From a virus, in IMG/VR virus record IMGVR_UViG_3300027754_000503, positions 1 to 21,389 of that record: 21,389 nt of DNA; one strand, given 5' to 3'. Position 1 is the first letter of the stretch; each line of letters opens with the position of its first letter. A program made the position numbers and the translations under genes. Shown piece by piece: positions 543 through 18,186 of this stretch. The notes under the pieces are model-generated. The model made no database searches. It was not told the origin of the DNA and saw only the letters and a list, made by a program, of their open reading frames with translations.

Positions 543-1142
543 ATGACAGCTAAGAAGATACCCGCCAAGGCCATCAGAAGCCCCGCTACGCCTGTGAAGG
601 CCACAGCTAAGGGTAAGGTAGCTGCATCGCCCGCAAAGAGAACTGGAAGGCCATCAGGCTCTGGCTCTACCTACACAGACAGCATCGCATCCAGTATCTG
701 CGGACTGGTACTCAACGGGGTGCCACTGCGTCAAGTGTGCAGAATGCCGGGTATGCCAGCGTGGCGAACTGTTTACGATTGGTGCGACGATCACCCGCTC
801 TTCGCCGCACGCCTCGCGCAAGCCAGAGACCTTGGGTTCGATGCGCTGGCTGAAGAGGCGCTGGAGATTGCTGACACGCCGGTGATGGGTCACAAGCAGG
901 TGATGGGTGACGACAAGACAACGACGACCGTCGAGGATATGCTGGGTCACCGCAAGTTGCAGATCGAGACGAGGTTGAAACTGCTGGCCTGCTGGAACCC
1001 GAAGAAGTACGGGAACAAGGTGGCACTCGGCGGTGACGCAGGTAACCCGATCCAGATCGAGGCATCGACGGAGGCGCAGAGCCTGCTGGATGCCTTGCTG
1101 AAGCACGCAGAGCTAACGCAGCAGACCAAAGCCAGTGAGTGA
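543..1142 (+). CDS. terS: Terminase small subunit
   Basis: This is the DNA-recognition subunit of the packaging motor. The 199-residue protein has a basic Lys/Ala/Pro-rich tail (1-36) ending in KRTGRPSG. A helix-turn-helix region follows at about 45-85 (PLRQVCRMPGMPAWRTVYDW), then the helical core FAARLAQARDLGFDALAEEA (87-106) and a HRKLQIETRLKLLACWNPKKYGNK block (136-159). This is the Sf6/P22-type terminase small subunit pattern. The frame is open upstream to 387, but the ATG at 543 has a GGAG six bases before it and the upstream translation is not protein-like, so 543 is chosen. It overlaps the large subunit gene by eight bases. The histone-like tail is unusual and may bind DNA non-specifically. 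Confidence 0.9.
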   Translation: MTAKKIPAKAIRSPATPVKATAKGKVAASPAKRTGRPSGSGSTYTDSIASSICGLVLNGVPLRQVCRMPGMPAWRTVYDWCDDHPLFAARLAQARDLGFDALAEEALEIADTPVMGHKQVMGDDKTTTTVEDMLGHRKLQIETRLKLLACWNPKKYGNKVALGGDAGNPIQIEASTEAQSLLDALLKHAELTQQTKASE

Positions 1143-2553
1143 CCTTGCGACCGTACTGAGAGACCCAGAGGTTCAGAAGAGCCTCGCGTTAGTCAGTCCG
1201 GAGGCCCGCCTTGCATGGGCGTGGCGCATGACGTGGATACAGAAAGCCCACAAGCATCAGGCATTGCCTCCCGGTGATTGGTGGTCGATCTGGCTGATGC
1301 TTGCTGGCCGTGGTGCTGGCAAGACGCGCACTGCCGCAGAACAGATAGCTTGGTGGGCGTACAGTGAACCCGGCACCCGCTGGCTTGTTGCCGCCCCGAC
1401 TAGTGCTGACGTCAGGGCAACCTGCTTCGAAGGCGACTCAGGCCTGCTCACTATCGTCCCCAAGGGGCTGGTGGCGGACTACAACAAGACCTCGCACGAA
1501 CTCAGGTTGATCAACGGTTCCCTGATCAAGGGCATCCCGGCATCCGAGCCTGAGCGGTTCCGTGGGCCGCAGTTCCACGGGGCGTGGCTCGACGAGCTTG
1601 CGGCGTGGGACTACCTACAGGAGGCTTGGGATCAGATTCAGTTCGGCGTCCGACTGGGGACACGCACCCGCATCATTGCGACGACTACGCCAAAGCCGAA
1701 GGATCTGATTGTTGAGTTGATGGGCCGCGAGGGTGATGACGTTGTGCTGACGACCGCCTCGACCTACGCCAACCTCGACAACCTATCGGCGAATTTCCGC
1801 AAGCAGATCCTGAGCTACGAGGGTACGACGATAGGTCGGCAGGAGATCTACGCCGAGATCATCGACCCTGAAGAGAACGGCATCGTCAAGCGGGAGATGT
1901 TCCGGCTCTGGCCTGCCGGTAAGCCATTCCCGCCTTTCGAGTACATCATCCAGTCCTATGACGTAGCGACCAGCGAGAAGAGCCAGAACGATCCGACCGC
2001 CTGTATAACCTTTGGCGTCTTCAAGCCCTTGGACGGGCCTATGAGCGCGATGGTGATCGACTGCTGGCAGGACAGGCTCCAGTACCCTGACCTGCGCCCC
2101 AAGGTGATCGAGGAGTATGAGGCGGTCTACGGCGAAGGTAAAGAAAAGAAGCGGGTCGACCTGCTCCTGATCGAGGACAAGTCCGCAGGGATCAGCCTCA
2201 TCCAAGACCTCCAACGCGCCCACCTCCCTGTCCGGGCCTACAACCCCGGCAGGGCCGACAAGGTGCAGCGGTTGAACATCGTCAGCGCCATCATCGCCCG
2301 TGGCCGGGTGTGGATCCCTGAGAGCGACCGCAGGAAGGGGTTCGTCAAGGATTGGGCCGAGCAGTTCGTCAGCCAGATATGTGCGTTCCCCGACACGACT
2401 CATGACGACCTCGTTGACGCCTGTACGCAGGCCCTTCGGTACTTGAGGGACGGCGGCTGGCTGGAGGTGGACGCCCCGCCGAGGGACGACTACGACGACG
2501 AGGACTGGGTCGATAGCGGCAAGTCAAAGAAAGGCAACCCGTATGCGCAATGA
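1135..2553 (+). CDS. terL: Terminase large subunit
   Basis: This is the ATP-driven DNA translocase and headful or cos nuclease that docks on the portal. In the 472-residue protein the ATPase half shows Walker A GRGAGKTR (58-65), Walker B WLDE (151-154; D153 and catalytic E154) and a coupling motif ATTTPKP (182-188). The RNase H-like nuclease half shows its acidic residues at D276 (SYDVATS), E347 (LLIEDKSAG) and D424-D425 (THDDLVDA). Length and motif spacing are normal for phage TerL, so it should be active. It starts with GTG at 1135 inside the terS end (8-base overlap) without a good ribosome site, which implies translational coupling. The C-terminus (449-472) is acidic, then basic. Confidence 0.95.
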   Translation: MSDLATVLRDPEVQKSLALVSPEARLAWAWRMTWIQKAHKHQALPPGDWWSIWLMLAGRGAGKTRTAAEQIAWWAYSEPGTRWLVAAPTSADVRATCFEGDSGLLTIVPKGLVADYNKTSHELRLINGSLIKGIPASEPERFRGPQFHGAWLDELAAWDYLQEAWDQIQFGVRLGTRTRIIATTTPKPKDLIVELMGREGDDVVLTTASTYANLDNLSANFRKQILSYEGTTIGRQEIYAEIIDPEENGIVKREMFRLWPAGKPFPPFEYIIQSYDVATSEKSQNDPTACITFGVFKPLDGPMSAMVIDCWQDRLQYPDLRPKVIEEYEAVYGEGKEKKRVDLLLIEDKSAGISLIQDLQRAHLPVRAYNPGRADKVQRLNIVSAIIARGRVWIPESDRRKGFVKDWAEQFVSQICAFPDTTHDDLVDACTQALRYLRDGGWLEVDAPPRDDYDDEDWVDSGKSKKGNPYAQ

Positions 2554-3011: not shown

Positions 3012-6000
3012 ATGCTGCACGAACCTGTCAAGGCTTTGAAGCCACTGCCCATGCTGGAACTGCCAAAGATACCCGGAAAGGGTAGGGAGCAGACCTTGCA
3101 GGAGTGGCACGCTGCTGGTGGCAGTGTTCCGGTGCAGTACAAGAGCAGGCCTCATGTCTGGCACGCCAAGGTCAAGCAGTACGCTGACGGTGGCTCGGTA
3201 GGTGGTGAGGCTTACGGCAACGCCCCTGACAGCAGCGATAGCGGGGTAGTGCAGGACGCCCAGCACTTTGCTGATGGCGGCGTTATTCACATGGCTGGTG
3301 GCGGTAGGCTTGGCTCTGCCCCTAGTGGCCGTGGCCCAATGACCGCAGGACAGCCCAAGAGGCGCGAGGCCAGCATTACTGAGGCAGTGACGCAAGGTCT
3401 TCTTCCAATGCTGTACGGGGCCGCTAAAGGCTCCGCATCCCATGTTGGTGGCGTGGCGGGTGATCTTGAAAGCCTTGCACGAGAGGGCTTAAATTTTTCA
3501 TTTGGCCCCGGTGGCGTTAATCTTAGCGAGGAGACATTCCTTCCTACGTCAGAAGATGTGCGTGGATACCTACCTTCTTTGAAACGGTTTGGCCCAACGG
3601 TTGCAGGCGTTGAAGATATTGGTGCTGACCTTGGGCAAAACCTTGTTGGAATGATGTTTGACCCGGCTGCGTTTAGGGCGGCTACCAAAGGCGCGAAGGC
3701 TGTTGGGCGTGGAGCGCTTGACCTAGCGAAGTCTGATGCTGCTCATCGCGTAGTGCAGAAGGCCCTGTCGTCCCCGCTGATGGCCCCATCGCATCAGATG
3801 AGCGTAGTGAAGCAGCCCGGTGGAAACTGGCTGACGGGCAAGGTTGAGCATGATGTCAAGCACTTGAAGACCCCTCATGGTACGGACTATCTTGAAGCAG
3901 ATTTGCGTGATCTTCGGTCGCGGTTTGGTGATTTGCCAGCTTATGAAACGGCAGATAAAGAAATCCAAGCGTCAAAGGCGGCTGACAAGTGGGTTGATAG
4001 TAACCTGACCAAATACATCAAGAACGAGATGGGGTCACCCAAAGACCCGGTGCGTCAGTTGTTTGACCAGAAGGCGCTTGATATTGAGGCAAAGTACGCC
4101 AAAGACATAGAGCGTGCAGACCGTGTTGCCCAGCGTGCGGCTGATGAGCCTGATCCACAACGCAAAGCTAACCTTGAGCGTGAGTCTAGACGCCTTAGCA
4201 GTAAAGCATTGGCTGATGCTGAGTTGGCTGAACAACACATTACGCATCAAAAAGGTATTGAAGAAGACCAAGATTACTTTTCCTCTTCGCTTCAAGATCG
4301 GCGATTGAGGGAAGGATTCCCGCCATCCGGACTAGCTACGTCGAGGTCAGGCCAAGCATGGGAGCAAGTCTCTGACCAAGGTATTGAAGCAAGCCGTGCT
4401 GGCAATATTCAAAAGGCAGTGCAAGACGAAGATACGGTTAAAAGGGTAACACGAGCTTGGCTTGCAAAGCGTGATGCTTTGAATAATAATTTTGACGAGT
4501 TTCTTCGTGCTAGACCAAATTTAAATGAATCAGATATATATTCATTAAATAGAAGAACTACGCTTGATGACAAAGCAAGAATGACTGGAGATACAGAGTA
4601 TCAAAAATCAGCCAGCGAATATTATGACGCTCAACATGGGTGGTCAAGTGACGATGCACGACTTGGTAAAGAAAACCCTTGGATTAGCAAAGTTGATCCA
4701 GACAGTTCGGTGTATTCTTCTTTTACAAACCACCTCGGCTTTCACCATATCGTTGATGTACTGAAAGCAGACATGGCGGCAGGCCGCATTCGCCCTGAGC
4801 AACTGAACAAGATGAGCATGGAGCAAGCGGTTAGGCGTACTGCTGAGTATGACCTAGACGCTGCAAAGGCGGCGGCAGCAGCCCGAGCCAAGAGCTTGGA
4901 AAATATGCCCGTCCTCAAAGAATACCCAGAGGGCTACAAGTGGGTGCAGCTAACCGAGCCGGGGCAGTTCGCTCAAGAGTCTAACGTGATGGGCCACTCG
5001 GTACGTGGCTACGAACCGCCAAGAGGCCACCCTGAACACATCCCAGAGTCCGGGACTGAAGGAAGCGACTACTACGGTCACGGCGGATGGGACGCCATTA
5101 AGTCGGGTAAGGCAAAGATTTATTCTTTGCGTGATCCAGAGGGAATGTCCCATGCAACGGTTGAGACAAGCAACAAACCAGATTACGACAAAGCCGCAAG
5201 AATTATGGGTATTGACGACCCAACGCAAGCTGATATAGCCAGCCTTATAGCAGAAGGAAAACTGCCAAATTCAGAGCGCATTACCCAAATCAAAGGCAAG
5301 CGCAACGAAAAACCAAATGAACAGTATCAACCTTATGTTAGTGATTTTGTAAAATCAAACAACTGGGCTGATGTTGGTGATTTGGAAAATACTAATTTGG
5401 CAAAACTTGGCAAAAATTATGTAACACTTGATGAATTAAATGAAGCAAAAAAACCAGCACAAAAGTTTTTAGCTGAACATCCGGGTTTTGAAAAATTCCG
5501 TAACGCGCATGAAAAATTGTTTACTGAAGGGTATGGTAGTCCAGAATATCAAGCAAACGAAAAGATTCGTGGGCAACCAGTACACAAAGATATTCCGTAC
5601 ACATACTCTGATTTAAAAGCCGTATTGGAAAATCCTGAAGATTGGGCAGACAAAACAGTTGGGGCTGGTGAGATTCTGTCCAAACATTTGGAACTAATAG
5701 ATAAGGTTCGTCGGCTATATGGCGACTTGCCAGCAGAAAAAGTATCTGGTATGAAAGCTGGCGGTGAAGTCCATATGGCTGACGGCGGTGCAGCCTTTGG
5801 CAAGTACCCTGCGATGAAGGCCAGTACGTCTAAGGGCAAGAAGGAGGCACAGTACCGCCTGCCGCTTGATGTGGCCCGTGGCGCTGTTGCTGGTGTGCTT
5901 GGTATGCCCGGTGACCTTGAGACCCTTGGGCGGCTTGGCTTGAACTTTGCGTTCGGCCCCGGTGGTGTTGATGTCAGCAACAAATCATTCCTGCCAACGT

Positions 6001-8318
6001 CAGAGGACATTGAGAAGCGCATCCCGTTCCGTGGTGAGGAGCCTGTCAACAAGCTAGGTGCTGGCTTTGGTTCGCTGATTGGTGGACTTTCCCCTGCCCC
6101 AGCCAATGCAGCTATTAAAGGCGCCAAGGCTGTTGGACAAGGTGCCGCTAAGGCAGCAAAGTCTGAAACTGTCCGCAATTTAGTTGAAAAGGCACTTGAG
6201 TCACCCATGCTGGCCCCAGCAAGGCCCATGTACGCTGCGCCCAAAGCACCAAAAGGTGTTGAGCCTATCGTGGTTCGCACGCCTGAAGAGCGGGCTGTAA
6301 TCGACAAGTTCGGCCAGAAGCAAGAGCAGGAAGCTGCCCGTAAAAAGAAGGTTGAGAAGGCAGCGTTATCTGAACCCGATGAATCATCTGCCCCGCCAAA
6401 ATCAAAAGGAAAACGTACTGCGGATTCTGCTGACGTTTACCGCAGGATGGCCGAGACGGAGGGCGATGAAGCCGTGCTAAAGGCTGCAAAAGCCGGTGAG
6501 CATCTGAAGCCTACCGCTAGTGGCTATGTTGGCGCACCGCGCACTGTGACCAGCCCACAAGGCCTTGGCGCAATGCGTAAAGCAATGGACAAAGACTTTG
6601 TTGATTCGGTTGAGGCTGTGCGCCTTGCTGATGCAGACCGACTTGGCACATGGTACGACCGTGCCAAACAGGGAATTGCCGAAAGCACTGAACCTTACCA
6701 ACTTCCTCGCACTCTTGAGCAGCATGGCGTTTACTCCGCAGGCGTAAGCCCAGAGTCAGAGTTGACCTTTGCGTTGAAGCATTTAAACAGCCGGGTAGCG
6801 GGTGAGCCGGGTATGGCTTATCGCGGCGCTGGGATGAGGAACCTTGACGAAGCCGTAGCTGAAAACCGTCCAGCCAATATGGGGTTCAAGATTGGTGAGT
6901 ACGCTAACAAGAATGACCCGCGCCTTCCAAACACTGGATTGTTCGGCGTGAATGACTTCCGCAGGGCGCAAGGCATGGGCTATACCGATCCACAAGGTAT
7001 GCCGTGGAAGGCGGGCGTATCTGCAACTATGCACCCGTTTATGGACGCTGAGACGGCCTTACAAGTTAATCGCGCCAACACCGCAAGGACTGGTGGGCGT
7101 ACTGACTGGGCTGGCCCGCACATCCAAGAAGTTCCTTGGGTTTATGGAAAAGCACAAGATTTGCACAGCCGAGGTGTAAAGGGCCGGTACAAGGGCGATG
7201 AGCTTGAAGGCATCAAGGGCGCTTTGCAAGACGCCAATAACACTGCCCGTGATTATTTCTACAAGCAAACTGGGTCGGCTACACACGAAGCCATTCCGGG
7301 GGCAAACACTGGTCATGTCCCGCAGATGATTGACGCCCCCTATGCTGAGAAGGTGGCATACGGGAACACTGGCCGGTGGGACGTACCAGCCCCAGAATAC
7401 GCAATGAGCGACATGGGGACGGTTGGTGCTGGTAACCGGGATGCAATCTATAGTGCTTTGGGTTATCGGCAACTTCCAACGATTGAGGCTTCGGGGGCTT
7501 ATTTCCCAGAAGGGTCAAAAATTGCAGAACACCAACCGGTAAAAATTGCTCGTCCATTGTTGGATTTTCCAACAGGCGGAGAAGGTTTGATAGCCGACCC
7601 AACACGGCAAACATTAGAGTTTGGTGAACGATTCCGCGCATTAAATGATGCACAAGAAGCGTTTGGGTTTAATTTGCCAAACACCATGAATGCCGTAAAA
7701 GGAAAAAATTCGTTGGTGCTTGATACCAGACGTTCCAATCCAAAAAACTTAGACGAGCCGCACACGGGGGTGATGCCCTCTGACCAGCAAATGGGTGCGT
7801 TGACGCAAGCATTGGGTGATGTCGGCTATGGTGTTGCCCCAACTAGCCGAGGGGCAACCGTGTTCCCATTTGATTCCAAAGCAACAGCCAAAGATGCTAG
7901 GAAACTGATGAAGAAAAAAGGTGCAGAGCTTCAAAAGATTTATCCTTCTGAAATGGAGCCTTCGTTAAATTCATCTGGATACGGGCCGGGTGTTGGGATG
8001 TACACACCGGAAGGTTTCAGGGGTACTGAACCATTCAGCGGGCAGGCAACAATGGGACTTCTAAAAGAAGCCTCATACTTGCCACCTGAAGTAGCTCTTA
8101 ATTTAGGAGAGTCTGAAAGTGTAAGAAATGCCATTCGCGGGAAAAGAACTCGCGATGCTGGTCTACCCGGTGCGCGGGCCGACATACAAGAAACCCGCCG
8201 GTTCTTTAGCGAAGCTGATTGGCCTAAAGCTGTTGCACTAATTCGTCAAGGCTTTACGCCTGCGGCGGCTTTGGCTGCTCTTGGCTACTCGGCATCCAGT
8301 ATGGCTAAAGATCGTTGA
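3012..8318 (+). CDS. Giant PcfJ-domain polyvalent-type protein (1768 aa)
   Basis: A very large multidomain protein; SD GAGG at 3000-3003. The N-terminus carries glycine motifs YADGGSV (57-63) and FADGGVI (86-92). Repeat module R1 covers about 130-263 (core FGPGGV, FLPTSED). A charged helical stretch follows, then a PcfJ-like domain at about 640-790 with MGHSVRGY (660-667), IYSLRDPEGMSHATVE (703-718) and ITQIKGKRN (757-765). Motif MADGG (922-926) precedes a diverged second module R2 (about 950-1075) and a long unassigned region (about 1170-1768). PcfJ domains occur in conjugative-plasmid and phage polyvalent proteins, which enter the cell with incoming DNA. I infer a virion-carried effector. 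Its position between terL and portal, internal duplication and AT-rich patches suggest a fused or acquired insert. No enzyme activity can be assigned. Confidence 0.85.
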   Translation: MLHEPVKALKPLPMLELPKIPGKGREQTLQEWHAAGGSVPVQYKSRPHVWHAKVKQYADGGSVGGEAYGNAPDSSDSGVVQDAQHFADGGVIHMAGGGRLGSAPSGRGPMTAGQPKRREASITEAVTQGLLPMLYGAAKGSASHVGGVAGDLESLAREGLNFSFGPGGVNLSEETFLPTSEDVRGYLPSLKRFGPTVAGVEDIGADLGQNLVGMMFDPAAFRAATKGAKAVGRGALDLAKSDAAHRVVQKALSSPLMAPSHQMSVVKQPGGNWLTGKVEHDVKHLKTPHGTDYLEADLRDLRSRFGDLPAYETADKEIQASKAADKWVDSNLTKYIKNEMGSPKDPVRQLFDQKALDIEAKYAKDIERADRVAQRAADEPDPQRKANLERESRRLSSKALADAELAEQHITHQKGIEEDQDYFSSSLQDRRLREGFPPSGLATSRSGQAWEQVSDQGIEASRAGNIQKAVQDEDTVKRVTRAWLAKRDALNNNFDEFLRARPNLNESDIYSLNRRTTLDDKARMTGDTEYQKSASEYYDAQHGWSSDDARLGKENPWISKVDPDSSVYSSFTNHLGFHHIVDVLKADMAAGRIRPEQLNKMSMEQAVRRTAEYDLDAAKAAAAARAKSLENMPVLKEYPEGYKWVQLTEPGQFAQESNVMGHSVRGYEPPRGHPEHIPESGTEGSDYYGHGGWDAIKSGKAKIYSLRDPEGMSHATVETSNKPDYDKAARIMGIDDPTQADIASLIAEGKLPNSERITQIKGKRNEKPNEQYQPYVSDFVKSNNWADVGDLENTNLAKLGKNYVTLDELNEAKKPAQKFLAEHPGFEKFRNAHEKLFTEGYGSPEYQANEKIRGQPVHKDIPYTYSDLKAVLENPEDWADKTVGAGEILSKHLELIDKVRRLYGDLPAEKVSGMKAGGEVHMADGGAAFGKYPAMKASTSKGKKEAQYRLPLDVARGAVAGVLGMPGDLETLGRLGLNFAFGPGGVDVSNKSFLPTSEDIEKRIPFRGEEPVNKLGAGFGSLIGGLSPAPANAAIKGAKAVGQGAAKAAKSETVRNLVEKALESPMLAPARPMYAAPKAPKGVEPIVVRTPEERAVIDKFGQKQEQEAARKKKVEKAALSEPDESSAPPKSKGKRTADSADVYRRMAETEGDEAVLKAAKAGEHLKPTASGYVGAPRTVTSPQGLGAMRKAMDKDFVDSVEAVRLADADRLGTWYDRAKQGIAESTEPYQLPRTLEQHGVYSAGVSPESELTFALKHLNSRVAGEPGMAYRGAGMRNLDEAVAENRPANMGFKIGEYANKNDPRLPNTGLFGVNDFRRAQGMGYTDPQGMPWKAGVSATMHPFMDAETALQVNRANTARTGGRTDWAGPHIQEVPWVYGKAQDLHSRGVKGRYKGDELEGIKGALQDANNTARDYFYKQTGSATHEAIPGANTGHVPQMIDAPYAEKVAYGNTGRWDVPAPEYAMSDMGTVGAGNRDAIYSALGYRQLPTIEASGAYFPEGSKIAEHQPVKIARPLLDFPTGGEGLIADPTRQTLEFGERFRALNDAQEAFGFNLPNTMNAVKGKNSLVLDTRRSNPKNLDEPHTGVMPSDQQMGALTQALGDVGYGVAPTSRGATVFPFDSKATAKDARKLMKKKGAELQKIYPSEMEPSLNSSGYGPGVGMYTPEGFRGTEPFSGQATMGLLKEASYLPPEVALNLGESESVRNAIRGKRTRDAGLPGARADIQETRRFFSEADWPKAVALIRQGFTPAAALAALGYSASSMAKDR
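3399..3800 (+). repeat. Intragenic module R1 of the giant protein
   Basis: Residues about 130-263. The key segment reads GDLESLAREGLNFSFGPGGV followed by FLPTSED, a variable stretch, GAKAVGRGA and ALSSPLMAP. The same order recurs in module R2 at 5859-6236. The copies match clearly in protein but are well diverged in DNA, so the duplication is old or the modules were joined by recombination. Confidence 0.8.
5859..6236 (+). repeat. Intragenic module R2 of the giant protein
   Basis: Residues about 950-1075. GDLETLGRLGLNFAFGPGGV, FLPTSED, GAKAVGQGA and ALESPMLAP appear in the same order as in R1 (3399-3800). Each copy is preceded by a HMA[G/D]GG segment, so the duplicated unit includes the glycine motif plus the module. 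Confidence 0.8.
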
Positions 8319-8558: not shown

Positions 8559-11090
8559 ATGGCAACCCAATTTCCAATAGACCCAGAGTTCGACCGTCAC
8601 GTTCAGGGCCAGCAGCAGGACGAGGAAGGCACTGAGGTCGATATGCCGGAGATGGATGAGTCCGAGCTTGAGGAGCTTCCTGACGGGTCTGTGATCGTTC
8701 ATATGCCGGGTAAAGGCCCGATGGATGACGAGGACTTCTACGAGAACTTGGCCGACTCTGACGCCATTCACCCGCTGGACATCAGCGGTCTTGCGCTTCG
8801 TTACATCGAACTGGTGGAGAAGGACAAGGAAGCCCGCAAGCAGCGTGACCGCCAGTACGAAGACGGCATCAAGCGTACCGGCATGGGCAATGACGCTCCC
8901 GGTGGTGCTAACTTCAATGGCGCATCGAAGGTTGTTCACCCGGTGATGGCCGAGGCTTGCATTGACTTTGCTTCGCGTGCAATCAAGGAGATGTTCCCGC
9001 CTGACGGCCCGACAAGAACAAAGATTCTGGGTGACGTCACCGAGATGAAGACCGACATTGCAGAGCGCAAGCGGGACTACATGAACTGGCAGTTGACGGA
9101 ACAGATTGAAGAGTTCCGCGACGAGCAAGAACAACTGCTGACCCAGCTTCCTTTGGGTGGTTCGCAGTACATGAAGCTGTGGTACGACGAGAAGAAGAAG
9201 CGTCCGTGCGCTCAGTTCTTGCCTATCGACAACGTCCTGCTGCCGTATTCCGCAGCCAACTTCTACACCGCAGAGCGTGTGACCGAGGTTGATGACGTAT
9301 CCGAGTGGGACTACAAGCGCCGGGTCAGGTCTGGTCTGTACCGCGACACCGCAATGTCCCGTGCAACTATGGATCCAGAATTGACGCTGGCCCAGAAGGC
9401 GACAAACAAGATTGAAGGCAAGTCATCCAACGACAACGATGACGGTCTGCGCCGGGTTTATCACATCTACACATGGCTGGAGCTTGAAGACGACAAGCTG
9501 ACCGATGGCGAGATGGCTCCTTACATCCTGATCATTGACGACCTGTCGACGGAAGTGATTGGCCTGTATCGGAATTGGGAAGAAGGCGACGAAACAATGA
9601 CCAAGCTGGACTGGGTCATTGAGTTCAAGTTCATTCCTTGGCGTGGTGCTTACGCAGTTGGTCTACCACAGCTCATTGGCGGCCTCTCAGCGGCCCTTAC
9701 AGGCTCTCTGAGGGCCTTGCTGGACTCTGCCCACATCAACAACGCTGCAACGCTCCTGAAGCTCAAGGGCGGCAAAATTTCTGGACAGTCCCAAGAGATC
9801 GAAGTCACGCAGGTTGTGGAGATTGAGGGCGCTCCGGGTGTTGATGACGTCCGCAAGATGGCTATGCCTATGCCGTTTAACCCACCAAGCCCGGTGTTGT
9901 TTGAGCTTTTGGGCTTTTTGACGACTGCTGCCAAGGGTGTTGTGACTACGGCGGAGGAAAAGATTGCCAACGTCAACTCAAACACCCCTGTTGGCACGAC
10001 TCAAGCTCTTATTGAGCAAGGCGCGGTGGTATTTTCGGCAATTCACTCGCGTTTGCATGAGTCCCAAGGCCGGGTGCTGAAGGTTTTGAGCAGAATCAAC
10101 CGCTGGTATCTGGACGATATGCGCCGGGGCGAGATTGTTGAGGATTTGGACATCAAGCGTGAGGACTTTGCCAAGGTTACTGACGTAATTCCGGTTTCTG
10201 ACCCGCACATCTTCAGCGAAACGCAACGGATGGCCCAGACCCAAGCGGTTATGGCTATCATGGACAAAAATCCCGATCTTTTTAACAAGAAGGCGGTGAT
10301 TCAGCGGTTCCTTAAGCAGATCAAGGTTCCGGGCGTCAACGAATTGATGATTGACACGCCGCCACCTGTCAAAATGGACGCAGCCAATGAGAATGTGGCT
10401 ATGGCTATCGGTCAAGCAGCCTTTGCATACCCAGAACAAGACCATTTGGGCCATATTCAAGTGATTTTGGACTTTGCAAAGAACCCCGCACTGGGTGCAA
10501 ACCCCGTTATTGCTCCTGCATACCTTCCAAAAGCCGTAGAACACATCAAACAGCACTTAGTTCTGTGGTATTTGAACCGCATGAACGGGTATGTTGAGAA
10601 GTCTTTGGGCAAGAAGATGGATCATTACGAGCTAGAAAGCGACCCGAAATCGGTTGATAAGCTATTCGCTTTGGCTTCGCAACACGTTGAAATGGACTCT
10701 GAGCAGACTATCAAGGGCATCATGCCGGTGATTACGCAGATGATGCAGCAACTCCAGCAGAGCAAGCCACAGCCGCCAATGACGCCTGACGTCAAGGTTC
10801 TGCTTGATACCAGCATGGCTGAGACCCAGCGCAGGGCCAAGCGTGACGAGGCTGAGATGGGTCTGAAGGACAAGGAGCTTGCAGCCAAGATTCAGAACGA
10901 CATGGCTGAATTGCAGCAACGCCAGCAGATTGACATGGAAGAGATGCAGTTGAGGTTGGCGATTGCCAATGACGACCGCGACATGAAGGAACGCATCGAA
11001 ACGGCCCGCTTAACACGGGATGCTGCAAAGCTCAATTTTGAGCAAGTCAAAGCCGTGCCAACCCAAGGAGCTTTCAATGGCAACCAGTGA
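8559..11090 (+). CDS. Portal protein
   Basis: This is the dodecameric portal ring at the packaging vertex, docking site for TerL and later for the adaptor. The 843 residues match the long podovirus portal type. They comprise an acidic N-terminal arm (1-75), a core with MFPPDGPTRTKI (about 144-155), LPLGGSQYMKLWYDEKKK and LLPYSAANFYTAERVTEVDD, and a stem/clip region around FKFIPWRGAYAVGLPQL. A long C-terminal coiled coil (about 752-835; AETQRRAKRDEAEMGLKDKE) is comparable to the barrel of P22 portal. The start has AAGGAAA at an ordinary distance. It lies after the antisense gene and shares 14 bases with the next ORF. The assignment rests on remembered family patterns and gene order. Confidence 0.88.
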   Translation: MATQFPIDPEFDRHVQGQQQDEEGTEVDMPEMDESELEELPDGSVIVHMPGKGPMDDEDFYENLADSDAIHPLDISGLALRYIELVEKDKEARKQRDRQYEDGIKRTGMGNDAPGGANFNGASKVVHPVMAEACIDFASRAIKEMFPPDGPTRTKILGDVTEMKTDIAERKRDYMNWQLTEQIEEFRDEQEQLLTQLPLGGSQYMKLWYDEKKKRPCAQFLPIDNVLLPYSAANFYTAERVTEVDDVSEWDYKRRVRSGLYRDTAMSRATMDPELTLAQKATNKIEGKSSNDNDDGLRRVYHIYTWLELEDDKLTDGEMAPYILIIDDLSTEVIGLYRNWEEGDETMTKLDWVIEFKFIPWRGAYAVGLPQLIGGLSAALTGSLRALLDSAHINNAATLLKLKGGKISGQSQEIEVTQVVEIEGAPGVDDVRKMAMPMPFNPPSPVLFELLGFLTTAAKGVVTTAEEKIANVNSNTPVGTTQALIEQGAVVFSAIHSRLHESQGRVLKVLSRINRWYLDDMRRGEIVEDLDIKREDFAKVTDVIPVSDPHIFSETQRMAQTQAVMAIMDKNPDLFNKKAVIQRFLKQIKVPGVNELMIDTPPPVKMDAANENVAMAIGQAAFAYPEQDHLGHIQVILDFAKNPALGANPVIAPAYLPKAVEHIKQHLVLWYLNRMNGYVEKSLGKKMDHYELESDPKSVDKLFALASQHVEMDSEQTIKGIMPVITQMMQQLQQSKPQPPMTPDVKVLLDTSMAETQRRAKRDEAEMGLKDKELAAKIQNDMAELQQRQQIDMEEMQLRLAIANDDRDMKERIETARLTRDAAKLNFEQVKAVPTQGAFNGNQ

Positions 11091-11226: not shown

Positions 11227-11405
11227 AAACCCTTGGTGACTTAATTGGTGGTGTGAAGACTAAGCAAGCTGAAATAGCTGCTTCCCTCGTTGCTGGAAAT
11301 GCGACGAACTGGGAGTCTTACATCCGCTTAGTGGGGCATAACGCAGGGCTGCAAGAAGCCCTCGACATCCTCGACAGTTTAATGAAGGAAGACAATGACA
11401 ACTAA
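11223..11405 (+). CDS. Small helical hypothetical protein (60 aa)
   Basis: A 60-residue protein starting at GTG, overlapping the previous stop by four bases. It is almost wholly helical in appearance: MKTLGDLIGGVKTKQAEIAA, then NWESYIRLVGHNAGLQEALD and an acidic tail. Two helices joined near AGNATNW would form a hairpin. It overlaps the co-chaperonin start by 11 bases. No named family comes to mind. No strong ribosome site precedes the GTG, so it probably depends on coupling to the 49-codon ORF. A structural or assembly role is suggested only by its place between portal and co-chaperonin. Confidence 0.7.
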   Translation: MKTLGDLIGGVKTKQAEIAASLVAGNATNWESYIRLVGHNAGLQEALDILDSLMKEDNDN

Positions 11406-11826
11406 TACCGTAGCTTCTAACGAAGCTGAGATAGCTTGGGCATTTCCGAGCGTTGATCCCGGTGCAAAGCCTTTGGGCGGACGAGTTTTGGTTCAACTCC
11501 GTAGGTCAAGGAAGAAAACAAAATCAGGCTTGATATTGCCTCATGAGACCAAGGAAACAGAGAAGTGGCAAAACATGGTGGCACGGGTTGTCGCTATTGG
11601 GCCACTTGCGTTTAAACACCGCGACACGATGCAGTCTTGGCCCGAAGGGTCTTGGTGCGAAGTTGGCGATTACTTGCGAGTTCCTAAGTGGGGCGGCGAC
11701 CGTTGGGAAGTACCAGTCCCCGGTGAAGATGACATTGAAGAGCCAGCGCTGTTCATGATCATCAACGACCATGAGGTTATCGCAAAGTTGACCGGTGATC
11801 CACTTGCCATGAGGGCCTTCCTATGA
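11395..11826 (+). CDS. GroES-like co-chaperonin (Cpn10 family)
   Basis: A phage version of the GroES lid, expected to act with host GroEL to fold capsid protein. The 143 residues begin with a 24-residue extension. The Cpn10 signature follows: KPLGGRVLVQLRRSRKKTKS (25-44), mobile-loop tripeptide LIL (46-48) in SGLILPHETKETEKWQ, then MVARVVAIGPLAF (61-73), VGDYLRVPKWGG (90-101) and the closing strand ALFMIINDHEVIAKL (118-132). Host GroES is about 97 residues, so this one has an extended N-terminus and a longer middle insert (about 73-90). T4 gp31 is the known precedent for a phage GroES substitute. The gene overlaps both neighbours (11 and 4 bases) and sits directly before the scaffold. Confidence 0.85.
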   Translation: MTTNTVASNEAEIAWAFPSVDPGAKPLGGRVLVQLRRSRKKTKSGLILPHETKETEKWQNMVARVVAIGPLAFKHRDTMQSWPEGSWCEVGDYLRVPKWGGDRWEVPVPGEDDIEEPALFMIINDHEVIAKLTGDPLAMRAFL

Positions 11827-12734
11827 GTACAGAAAAAGACGATGACATCCTAGACATGGATGTTGTAGAGGAGAAGGACGGGTCTGCCACGGTAGACCTT
11901 CCCGATCACATTGAGGCCCCTAGTGCGTCTGACGACGACCGGGATCAGCCTAACGACACAGATGCAATCCGCGAAGCTCGACGCAATCGCCGTCACGCCA
12001 AAAAGGACTACATCAAGCGCACCAACGAGGAGAAAGACCAACGTCTGAGCCTCTTGCAGCGCCGTAATCAAGAGCTTGAAGAGCGCCTGTCGGTTGTTGA
12101 GCGCAAGACCCACGGTGCCGATCTGGCCCGTTACGACAAGGCGATTGACGACGAAGAGCTTCGCCTGAACTACGCGATTGCCAAAATGCGAGAGGCTACC
12201 GATAACTCGGACGGTACGGCATTCACGAAGGCTCAGGAGATGTGGTACGACAGCCGCCGCAAAGTAGAGGCCATGAAGGACTACAAGCAGCGTGCTACCC
12301 AGAACACCTCGCAAGAGACTGGGGCGGTCAATCCTAAGCTGATGAAGCTGGCGAATAACTGGATGGAGAAGAACGACTGGTACAGCCCGGACTCAAATGA
12401 TGAGGACACGGCTATTGCCAAAGTCATTGATAACAGGCTGGTGGCTGAAGGCTGGAATCCCGAAAATCAAGATTATTGGGACGAACTTGACACCCGCTTG
12501 CAAAAACGTCTGCCACACCGCTATACTCAAAGTAACGACGAATACTCCAGAAGGAGACCCAAGAGCGTAGTGACGGGGTCGGGGCGTGAGTCAGTGAGCC
12601 GAGGCGGCAATTCCTTTGTACTTGAACCAGAACAGGTTCGGGCTATGAAGGATGCCGGTTTCTGGGAAGACACTGAAAAACGTAACCGAATGATCAAGCG
12701 GTATGCCGCTGACGCACGTAACTCAAGGAGCTAA
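11823..12734 (+). CDS. Capsid scaffolding protein
   Basis: This probably directs procapsid assembly and then leaves the shell. The 303-residue protein shows the expected scaffold layout: a very acidic disordered N-terminus (1-47), a long charged coiled coil (about 48-96; EEKDQRLSLLQRRNQELEER), more helix up to about 160, and a basic helical C-terminus (about 240-303; EQVRAMKDAGFWEDTEKRNR) suited to binding capsid protein. The start overlaps the co-chaperonin stop (ATGA). Its place between portal and major capsid gene supports the call, as does the absence of a nearby protease gene, in line with P22-type scaffold exit. There is no strict sequence signature, so the call rests on layout and position. 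Confidence 0.75.
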   Translation: MSTEKDDDILDMDVVEEKDGSATVDLPDHIEAPSASDDDRDQPNDTDAIREARRNRRHAKKDYIKRTNEEKDQRLSLLQRRNQELEERLSVVERKTHGADLARYDKAIDDEELRLNYAIAKMREATDNSDGTAFTKAQEMWYDSRRKVEAMKDYKQRATQNTSQETGAVNPKLMKLANNWMEKNDWYSPDSNDEDTAIAKVIDNRLVAEGWNPENQDYWDELDTRLQKRLPHRYTQSNDEYSRRRPKSVVTGSGRESVSRGGNSFVLEPEQVRAMKDAGFWEDTEKRNRMIKRYAADARNSRS

Positions 12735-13891: not shown

Positions 13892-14806
13892 ATGGCTGCT
13901 CCAATGCGTAGTACGGACTTTCGTTCGATTGTTGAACCAATCCTGAACGAATGTTTCGACGGTGTTTACGACCAACGTACCGATGAATGGTCGCGGATTT
14001 TCCGTGAGCAAGAAGGTATTCCCCGCAACTATCACGAAGAACCAGTCCTGTACGGATTTGGTGCCGCGCCTCAACTGCCAGACGGAACTCCGGTTTCGTA
14101 CCAGCAGGGTGGTGTTCTCTTCCTCCAGCGCTATGTTTACAACGTGTATGGCCTTGCCTTCGCGTTGACCAAAGTTCTGGTTGAAGACGGCGACCATATC
14201 CGTATCGGTCAGGTCTATGCTCGTCACCTCGCTCAGTCACTGATCGAAACGAAGGAAACGCTGTCGGCTAACGTGCTGAACCGCGCTTTCAACGCTTCGT
14301 ATCCCGGTGGCGATGGCGTGTCTCTGATTAGCACGGCACACCCAATCGTGAACGGTACTTTCAGCAATCAGTTGTCGACCGCCGCCAACCTGAGCCAAAC
14401 ATCGCTTGAGCAGATGTTGATTCAGATTCGTCAAGCAGTGGACAACAACGGCAAGAAGATTCGTCTGGTTCCTAAGCAACTCGCTGTGGCTCCGGGCAAC
14501 GTCTTCCAAGCTGAAGTTCTGCTGAAGTCGGTTCTGCGTGCTGGCAACGCCAACAACGACATCAACCCAATCAAGTCTATCGGCTTGCTTGATGATGGTG
14601 CTGCTGTTCTGTCGCGTTTGACCTCCGCAACGGCTTGGTGGGTTCAGACCGATGCACCAGAGGGCATGAAGCTCCTGATGCGCCGGAAGCTGGAAAAGAC
14701 GATGGAAGGTGACTTTGAAACCGACTCCATGCGCTACAAGGCTACCGAACGTTACCAAGTGGGTTTCACTGACCCCCGCGCAATGTACGGTACACCCGGC
14801 GTGTAA
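13892..14806 (+). CDS. Major capsid protein
   Basis: This is the main shell subunit, probably HK97-fold. The 304 residues include an N-terminal arm (1-60), an E-loop-like strand region (60-98; GTPVSYQQGGVLFLQRYVYN), a long spine-type helix (about 100-133; ARHLAQSLIETKETLSANVL) and GGDGVSLISTAHPIVNGTFS. LEQMLIQIRQAVDNNGKKIR and KQLAVAP follow, with a C-terminal strand block ending YQVGFTDPRAMYGTPG. The last block is typical of phage head subunits in which a beta-rich P-domain closes with a conserved D-P-R. AAAGGAGG gives an excellent ribosome site, and a strong terminator follows, as expected for an abundant product. No pro-domain or protease gene is seen. Confidence 0.85.
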   Translation: MAAPMRSTDFRSIVEPILNECFDGVYDQRTDEWSRIFREQEGIPRNYHEEPVLYGFGAAPQLPDGTPVSYQQGGVLFLQRYVYNVYGLAFALTKVLVEDGDHIRIGQVYARHLAQSLIETKETLSANVLNRAFNASYPGGDGVSLISTAHPIVNGTFSNQLSTAANLSQTSLEQMLIQIRQAVDNNGKKIRLVPKQLAVAPGNVFQAEVLLKSVLRAGNANNDINPIKSIGLLDDGAAVLSRLTSATAWWVQTDAPEGMKLLMRRKLEKTMEGDFETDSMRYKATERYQVGFTDPRAMYGTPGV

Positions 14807-15863: not shown

Positions 15864-16829
15864 ATGGGTCAATTCAAACCAATGGTCAAGATGATGACCA
15901 CCGAGCCAACCGTTGAGCTAAAGCTCAAAAAAGGTGGCAAGGTTCAGAAGAAGGCTGACGGCGGCATGATGATGCCTCCTCCTCCTCCTGCTGCACCGCC
16001 TCCTAGCGCTATGCCAAGCCCAATGCCTGCGCGTGGCGCTCCTCCAATGGGTGCTGCCCCGATGAAGCCTTCGTTGGCTATGCGTCGACGCGCCATGAAG
16101 GTTCCTGCCGGTGCTGGCCCTGCTGCTCCTGTCGGGCCTATGTCCGCCATGATGAAGAAGGGCGGATCAGCAAAGCATGATGATGCTGCTGAAGACCGGG
16201 CAATGATCAAGAAGGCAATGGCTGGCAAGAAGTTTGCTACCGGTGGTGTCGTAAAGGGCAACGGCGGTGGTTATGCGACTGGTGGCGTTGTCGACGGTCA
16301 AGGTGGCTACGCTACTGGCGGTGTCGTCAATGGTCAGGGCGGCTACAAGAAGGGTGGTTCAGCAAAAAAAGCCTACGCGGCGGGGGGAACTGTTGATTCA
16401 GGTGCCCCTGTCGCAATGAAGCAAGGCAACAAGCCTGTTCCAAAGCCAATCAGCATTACGGCCCTCACCGGGACGTACAAGAGTGGTGGCCGGGTAGCTC
16501 CGGGGAATCGTCAGTTGCAAGGTATGTCCGCCAATGAAAATGCTCCGGCAATGCGGGCAGCAAAAGCTGACAGCAACCTGAAGTATGGTCGTAAGATGAA
16601 AGATGGCGGTGAAATTGATCTTTCAAATGGCGAATACGACAGGGTGGTGAACGCTCCTCCAGTTGGAATGAGCTTTGCCAAGAAGGCGCACAGCTTCATT
16701 GACAACCTGTTTGCTCCCAAGAAGGAAGCAGGCGCAGGGCGTGGATTTATCAATCCTCCTGCTGGTAGCGTCACGAAGTCGAAGGAAGCCGTTACGGTTG
16801 TTCCTAAGAAGCGTGGCGGGGCGTGCTGA
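15864..16829 (+). CDS. Gly-rich repeat protein with [YFK]xxGG motifs
   Basis: A 321-residue, basic, low-complexity protein with AAAGGAG before the ATG. After KKGG (22-25) and KKADGG (29-34) comes a Pro/Ala/Met-rich segment (35-92, with a run of prolines). A ladder of short motifs follows: KKGGSA (98-103), FATGGVV (124-130), YATGGVV (137-143 and 149-155), YKKGGSA (161-167), YAAGGTV (171-177), YKSGG (205-209) and KMKDGGEI (244-251). The C-terminal third is more ordinary and ends KKRGGAC. No catalytic signature or membrane helix is seen. The same motif occurs in the giant protein and in the 158-residue protein downstream. A multivalent binding scaffold within the virion is my inference. A terminator follows. 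Confidence 0.7.
   Translation: MGQFKPMVKMMTTEPTVELKLKKGGKVQKKADGGMMMPPPPPAAPPPSAMPSPMPARGAPPMGAAPMKPSLAMRRRAMKVPAGAGPAAPVGPMSAMMKKGGSAKHDDAAEDRAMIKKAMAGKKFATGGVVKGNGGGYATGGVVDGQGGYATGGVVNGQGGYKKGGSAKKAYAAGGTVDSGAPVAMKQGNKPVPKPISITALTGTYKSGGRVAPGNRQLQGMSANENAPAMRAAKADSNLKYGRKMKDGGEIDLSNGEYDRVVNAPPVGMSFAKKAHSFIDNLFAPKKEAGAGRGFINPPAGSVTKSKEAVTVVPKKRGGAC
16233..16394 (+). repeat. Tandem 36-base coding repeats (GGYATGGVVxGQ)
   Basis: The motif ladder FATGGVV, YATGGVV, YATGGVV, YKKGGSA, YAAGGTV is spaced at 10-13 residues. The central two copies share a 12-residue (36-base) unit, GGYATGGVV[DN]GQ. Synonymous differences between copies show they are maintained at the protein level and are not recent slippage. 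Confidence 0.75.
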
Positions 16830-17709: not shown

Positions 17710-18186
17710 ATGGCAATGACAGGTAACCCAATTTTAGACACAATAAAAGGTATTGACCCCGGTATGCCAAAGGAGCTGGGCGGCGGCGGCGGCGGCGGCC
17801 GTGGCGGCGGCGGCGGCTTTGGTGGCGGCGGCGGCGGCTTTGGCGGCGGCGGCGGCGGCGGCCGTGGCGGCGGTGCTTACGGTGGCTTGGAAACAGTCAA
17901 TCAAGGCTCAAGCCAAATTGGCAAATCGCTAGGGGAAGTCGGAAATAGCCTTGATCAAAGCAACATGGCTTTGGCACAGGGCCGACAAGCCCTTGGTGGT
18001 GGTACACAACAATTTGGCGGCGGTGGTGGTGGGTTTAACCCAATGCAGCCACTAGCCGTAGATGAGCTGATGCCAATGTACAAAAAGGGTGGTTCTGTCA
18101 GTTACACAGGAAAATCTGGCCGTTTGAACCTTGGGTCGGGTCGGGTCTCTACCGCGACAAAAAACAAGTCCAATTCTCGTTGGTAA
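17710..18186 (+). CDS. Poly-glycine low-complexity protein (158 aa)
   Basis: A 158-residue protein with AAAAGGAA before the ATG. Residues 24-59 are nearly all glycine with F and R punctuations (FGGGGGGF, GRGGGAYGG). A helical middle follows (about 60-97; IGKSLGEVGNSLDQSNMALA), then a second glycine run (103-108). The tail carries YKKGGSV (124-130) and a basic Ser-rich end. The tail motif is shared with the 321-residue protein and the giant protein. Glycine-rich stretches with Phe and Arg resemble flexible or phase-separating segments. No homologue is recognised. The ordered C-terminal half and context support expression; the repeat part could vary in length by slippage. Confidence 0.65.
   Translation: MAMTGNPILDTIKGIDPGMPKELGGGGGGGRGGGGGFGGGGGGFGGGGGGGRGGGAYGGLETVNQGSSQIGKSLGEVGNSLDQSNMALAQGRQALGGGTQQFGGGGGGFNPMQPLAVDELMPMYKKGGSVSYTGKSGRLNLGSGRVSTATKNKSNSRW
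17778..17876 (+). repeat. GGC trinucleotide low-complexity tract
   Basis: About 100 bases consisting almost only of GGC triplets, broken by CGT and TTT codons, encode the poly-glycine stretch. In-frame slippage would change the protein length in steps of one residue without a frameshift. It is the strongest simple-sequence repeat in the window and a likely assembly or sequencing trouble spot. Confidence 0.85.

Follow-up and report, generated by a model that had tools for sequence, protein, structure and literature searches.

A Cpn10/GroES-family co-chaperonin gene in the head gene cluster of an environmental virus record and its pairing with one capsid type

The textbook phage co-chaperonin is gp31 of bacteriophage T4, which is explained largely by cage size, and a single GroEL cage accepts substrates of up to roughly 60 kDa. 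In gp31 the roof loops are missing and the cage is larger, and the capsid protein has a mass of 56 kDa (PMC6318259). Together with GroEL, gp31 folds gp23, a task in which GroES cannot substitute, and both gp31 and CocO of phage RB49 can replace GroES for all essential folding in E. coli (PMC3012670). Size is maybe not the sole determinant, since the gp31 homologues of T-even phages prefer their own gp23, as reviewed for T4 (PMC3012670). GroES was reported earlier in siphophage B8b (PMC4294664), is one of 13 genes that make up the core of HTVC023P-type pelagiphages (PMC9599517), and is shown where the genomes of Roseobacter phages CRP-901/902 are compared (PMC10149686). The gene described below has homologues at the equivalent position that are annotated as co-chaperonin GroES in Caulobacter phages RW and KcrB, Pelagibacter phages HTVC023P and HTVC027P, Roseobacter phages CRP-901 and CRP-902, and Planktothrix phage Pag-Yong1.

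In the present study we describe such a gene in a linear IMG/VR virus record of 21,389 bases, which was analysed whole and is referred to as the window. The gene is of an already known kind, and the phage group to which it belongs is widespread in freshwater and marine environments. What is added here is the tightness of the pairing between the co-chaperonin (Cpn10) and one type of capsid protein; a limited literature search found no statement of the breadth of this pairing.

A divergent Cpn10 under purifying selection

The 143-aa ORF matches the Pfam family Cpn10 (PF00166) at E=6.4e-9, with a score of 36.2 bits that exceeds the curated cut-off of 21.1, and the PHROG family phrog_3188, 'co-chaperonin GroES', at E=1.6e-10. 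The initial annotation had recognised a Cpn10 core from a few short motifs; all of these are present in the ORF, and the family matches bear the assignment out. A profile of 55 homologues (A1) retrieved Thermus Cpn10 (E=4.8e-8) and other GroES chains from the PDB. The NCBIfam equivalog cut-offs for housekeeping GroES were not reached (best score 30.5 bits, against 96-215 for the matched models), which points to a phage-type member that has diverged, and away from recent acquisition from a host. Such a capture is further disfavoured because the protein is only 21% identical to E. coli GroES and ∼25-30% identical to the closest Cpn10s of known structure, and because its distances track those of the capsid protein. 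The gene is under purifying selection, with a median dN/dS of 0.09 against close relatives and a median of 0.10 (maximum 0.24) over 608 pairs with 0.1<dS<1. A chance or spurious ORF is ruled out by the family E-values, the dN/dS of ∼0.1 and the conserved overlaps with neighbouring genes. The window thus encodes a genuine viral member of the Cpn10/GroES family.

The AlphaFold2 monomer model, computed with A1, has a pLDDT of 81.8 and a pTM of 0.77, and most of the predicted barrel lies at 81-95. The first 27 Foldseek matches in the PDB were GroES, Cpn10, gp31, or Cpn10-type subunits of the chloroplast Clp complex, and human Cpn10 (4pj1) was also among the best. Alignment with VIA gave Z scores of 9.6 for GroES (8wuc), 9.0 for Thermus Cpn10 (4v4o), and 8.1 and 6.9 for T4 gp31 (2cgt, the GroEL-gp31 complex, and 1g31, respectively), so that the top matches of the monomer are all of the GroES/Cpn10 kind, the best of them (Z 9.6) spanning 94 residues. 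Zinc dehydrogenases have a GroES-like fold as well but trail the co-chaperonins at Z 6.0 and below, against ∼7-9.6; a 'GroES-like' domain of the dehydrogenase type was rejected on this basis and because the mobile loop points to Cpn10. The expectation that modelling would give a Cpn10 barrel with a mobile loop was borne out for the monomer, confidently in the barrel and with low pLDDT in the loop.

Alignment to the 97-aa GroES of E. coli also agrees with the initial proposal that the N-terminus is extended and the roof or insert region lengthened. The extra length is distributed over five places: the N-terminus gains 21 residues and the C-terminus 9, another 4 follow the mobile-loop triad, the roof is longer by 4, and the last hairpin holds 8 more. 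A helix is predicted by AlphaFold2 at residues 7-16. Residues 41-60, the loop region, have pLDDT values of 59-64, as expected of a mobile loop. Among the 55 divergent homologues, position 46 of the triad is I in 52, and position 48 is L or I in all. Judged from these residues, the loop appears to be of the Cpn60-binding type with its hydrophobic triad. The invariant columns of the homologue profile in the roof-hairpin region are A72, G85, W87 and G91. As a separate observation, the GroES-like protein of Alcaligenes phage vB_Af_QDWS535 (3531-3872) has a long insertion before the triad, and its triad region reads LGIDL, not GGIVL-like, a possible change in the interaction with GroEL.

The head gene cluster of the window

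The features of the locus are collected in Table 1. The gene order begins with the small (phrog_1482) and large terminase subunits and continues through a 1768-aa ORF, the portal gene and two small ORFs to Cpn10, which is followed by the scaffold-like ORF, two further ORFs and the major capsid protein gene. The initial annotation placed the co-chaperonin gene embedded and overlapped within the head operon, between portal and scaffold; this description holds, given the overlaps on both sides (11 bp and 4 bp) and the conserved synteny, with two small ORFs separating portal and Cpn10. The 60-aa ORF before Cpn10 has no Pfam or PHROG family match, and small ORFs occupy this slot in relatives as well. 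At the downstream end, the 4-bp overlap with the scaffold-like ORF (ATGA, 11823-11826) is identical in 74 tallied relatives, and most others have short gaps. By its position and composition, the ORF downstream of Cpn10 is a putative scaffold gene.

Table 1. Features of the co-chaperonin locus in window coordinates
Feature	Position	Strand	Basis or remark
Terminase large subunit	1135..2553	+	PF03237 (5.6e-24); near start of head/packaging cluster
Portal protein, 843 aa, 95 kDa	8559..11090	+	phrog_1216 (6.1e-15)
Small ORF, 60 aa	11223..11405	+	Overlaps Cpn10 start by 11 bp
Cpn10/GroES-family co-chaperonin gene, 143 aa, 16.0 kDa	11395..11826	+	Start ATG 11395, stop TGA 11824-11826; PF00166, phrog_3188, AlphaFold2, Foldseek/VIA, dN/dS
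Mobile-loop core with hydrophobic triad L46-I47-L48 (SGLIL)	11515..11541	+	Equivalent of GroES GGIVL; low pLDDT
Roof-hairpin region GPLAFKHRDTMQSWPEGSWCEVGD	11599..11670	+	Exceeds that of E. coli GroES by 4 residues; alignment
Scaffold-like protein, 303 aa, charged, pI 5.3	11823..12734	+	phrog_28737 (unknown function)
Major capsid protein, 304 aa, 33.7 kDa	13892..14806	+	PF25209 (9.3e-11), PF10124 (3.9e-6), phrog_371

Several other features of the window were recorded. The 1768-aa ORF in the terminase-portal interval (3012-8318) has no PHROG match and contains the similar stretches EGLNFSFGPGGVNLSEETFLPTSEDV, near its start, and LGLNFAFGPGGVDVSNKSFLPTSEDI, near its middle. Its glycine-glycine motifs (ADGG, MAGGG) resemble those of ORF 15864-16829, in which YATGGVVNGQGG/KKGGS-type motifs recur and which has a 36-bp tandem repeat at 16266-16346. 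In the late structural region, a tract of GGC triplets at 17779-17873 (∼32 copies, 78% matches) codes for a long glycine-rich segment of ORF 17710-18186. A tRNA scan of the window gave no match.

Pairing with one capsid type

A tblastn search with the window Cpn10 found 15 phage records, all of which are among the 21 records that have this capsid protein. An HMM search for Cpn10 was run on five of the remaining capsid records (Alcaligenes phage QDWS535, three Manatee Spring phages and a virus assigned to Methanomicrobiales) and was positive in each. Cpn10 is therefore present in 20 of 20 tested phage records with this capsid protein, a count that leaves out MW202604, whose length and match coordinates equal those of the tested MW202601, and includes near-duplicates, namely four Caulobacter and three 65-kb cyanophage records. 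Metagenomic loci picked by the capsid protein alone, with two queries, carried Cpn10 ∼2 kb upstream in 52/52 and 38/38 of the cases in which the contig extended 4 kb or more in that direction; these 90 loci are dominated by close relatives, and the 20 phage records are more independent. For comparison, an E. coli GroES query matched only 90 of 50,697 records, and several of the 90 are jumbo phages or probably bacterial in origin. None of five cases from the distant ct7ZZ929 capsid group had Cpn10 near the capsid gene, and the ct7ZZ929 genome has its Cpn10 elsewhere, outside the portal-capsid interval.

Across 11 phages, the identities of Cpn10 and capsid protein are correlated (Mantel r 0.86, p 1e-4), which fits co-inheritance of the two proteins and, alone, is no proof of a functional link. 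The order TerL, portal, small ORF(s), Cpn10, scaffold-like gene, two ORFs and capsid is kept in most of the relatives examined, which comprised Caulobacter, Pelagibacter, Roseobacter, Alcaligenes, Planktothrix and uncultured phages. The window shares the arrangement of the HTVC023P-type head module, in which Cpn10 lies between portal and scaffold-like genes and only a few genes separate it from the PF25209-type capsid gene downstream.

Two observations concern individual relatives. The Methanomicrobiales-assigned virus BK063670.1, a putative archaeal virus that carries a distant version of the window-type capsid protein, has a 10 kDa chaperonin gene (1-270) just upstream of its terminase. For the RW cluster, PMC11053796 states that no major capsid gene had been recognised. 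RW_GP086c of Caulobacter phage RW (11619-12533) is very probably this gene, because its product matches the PF25209-type capsid protein of the window at 78% identity across 304 aa.

Proposed function and comparison with described systems

We propose that the protein is a GroES-type co-chaperonin that caps host GroEL and helps to fold the phage head proteins, the capsid protein first, and we put the probability of this reading at roughly 78%. Seven subunits would form a dome-shaped lid and dock onto the GroEL ring of the host through their mobile loops. The phage Cpn10, presumably expressed from the head gene cluster at the same time as its clients, would replace or supplement host GroES and so let GroEL fold phage head proteins. 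A partner encoded by the phages themselves was considered and rejected, as Cpn60 was detected in none of 22 records (some maybe fragments) by a search that was positive in 14 of 14 control genomes. With no Cpn60 in the related phages, the partner is most likely the GroEL of the host. The main client may well be the 34-kDa major capsid protein.

The initial annotation had tied the gene to the folding of capsid or portal proteins. The link to head proteins is supported indirectly, by the co-occurrence with one capsid type; folding of the portal protein inside the GroEL cage is implausible because its 95 kDa exceed a single cage. The analogy drawn with T4, where a phage co-chaperonin serves a large capsid protein, holds only in part and is weak for size, as the capsid protein has 304 aa (33.7 kDa) and the roof is slightly longer. 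A protein of 34 kDa fits the ordinary GroEL/GroES cage, so the size argument leaves the need for a dedicated Cpn10 unexplained. The lining of the cage, the affinity for GroEL, or the supply of co-chaperonin during the late burst would be better candidates.

The co-occurrence could instead stem from common ancestry of the entire head module and not from function, and a further point against the co-chaperonin reading is that phages of the ct7ZZ929 type, among the most distant capsid groups, place Cpn10 elsewhere. The same gene position outside the portal-capsid interval, in ct7ZZ929 and in the Methanomicrobiales-assigned virus, also weighs against a quite different role, in which a Cpn10-fold protein without chaperonin activity would supply its heptameric dome as a structural block of head assembly or the virion, for example with scaffold or portal. 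Such a role would suit a gene of the head cluster that adjoins the scaffold-like gene and shares the inheritance of the capsid; it would also suit a product with extensions at both termini that GroES lacks and with the predicted N-terminal helix. However, it needs neither a conserved triad of the GroEL-binding type nor a low-confidence loop, both of which are seen here as in functional GroES, and we regard it as quite improbable.

It is also unlikely that the protein is a general supplement, providing more GroES capacity or keeping GroEL active with no specific head client, so that the position in the head cluster only sets the time of expression. The near-absolute pairing with one capsid type across very diverse hosts and the conserved placement beside the scaffold-like gene are not what this would predict, even though gp31 and CocO can take over all essential GroES functions in E. 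coli (PMC3012670) and other phages, such as jumbo phages, carry GroES too.

If the protein is indeed a co-chaperonin for head proteins, a broader interpretation can be offered tentatively, as a possibility and not as the expected outcome: one capsid module may always require, and be inherited with, a dedicated co-chaperonin, which would serve a capsid protein of only 34 kDa on grounds unrelated to cage size. Such grounds could be the chemistry of the lumen, the hijacking of GroEL, or coupling to assembly via the terminal extensions. In that interpretation the module would span phages of cyanobacteria and of alpha-, beta- and gammaproteobacteria, together with a putative methanogen virus. As a single gene the finding is ordinary; it is the constant pairing with one capsid type that is worth testing. 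A very large environmental phage group that combines a constant Cpn10 with a small capsid protein offers a test of whether cage size is the real reason, and the Caulobacter phages RW and KcrB are cultured representatives (Cpn10 55%, capsid protein 78% identical) in which a laboratory test is possible.

Compared with named systems, the protein shares with bacterial GroES (E. coli, Thermus) the Cpn10 barrel, a GGIVL-like mobile loop and the closing strands, but is only 21% identical to E. coli GroES and has 46 extra residues. T4 gp31 and RB49 CocO are phage Cpn10s that work with host GroEL, as is proposed for the window protein, and their post-triad segment is also longer than in GroES; the predicted fold matches gp31 at Z 8.1 (2cgt). 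In contrast to gp31, with its missing roof loops and a cage enlarged for a large capsid protein, the window protein has, by alignment, a roof segment slightly longer than that of GroES (+4 residues), alongside a capsid protein of 33.7 kDa. The Riverwalkvirus Caulobacter phages RW, RLK, KcrB and GB2A and the HTVC023P-type pelagiphages have the Cpn10 domain, the slot and the capsid family all as in the window, and their homologues differ by sequence divergence only. The pelagiphage Cpn10s are ∼25% identical to that of the window, have an N-terminus that is longer and lack the 8-residue hairpin insertion; identity rises to 55% for the Caulobacter homologue and 61% for ctpbd312.
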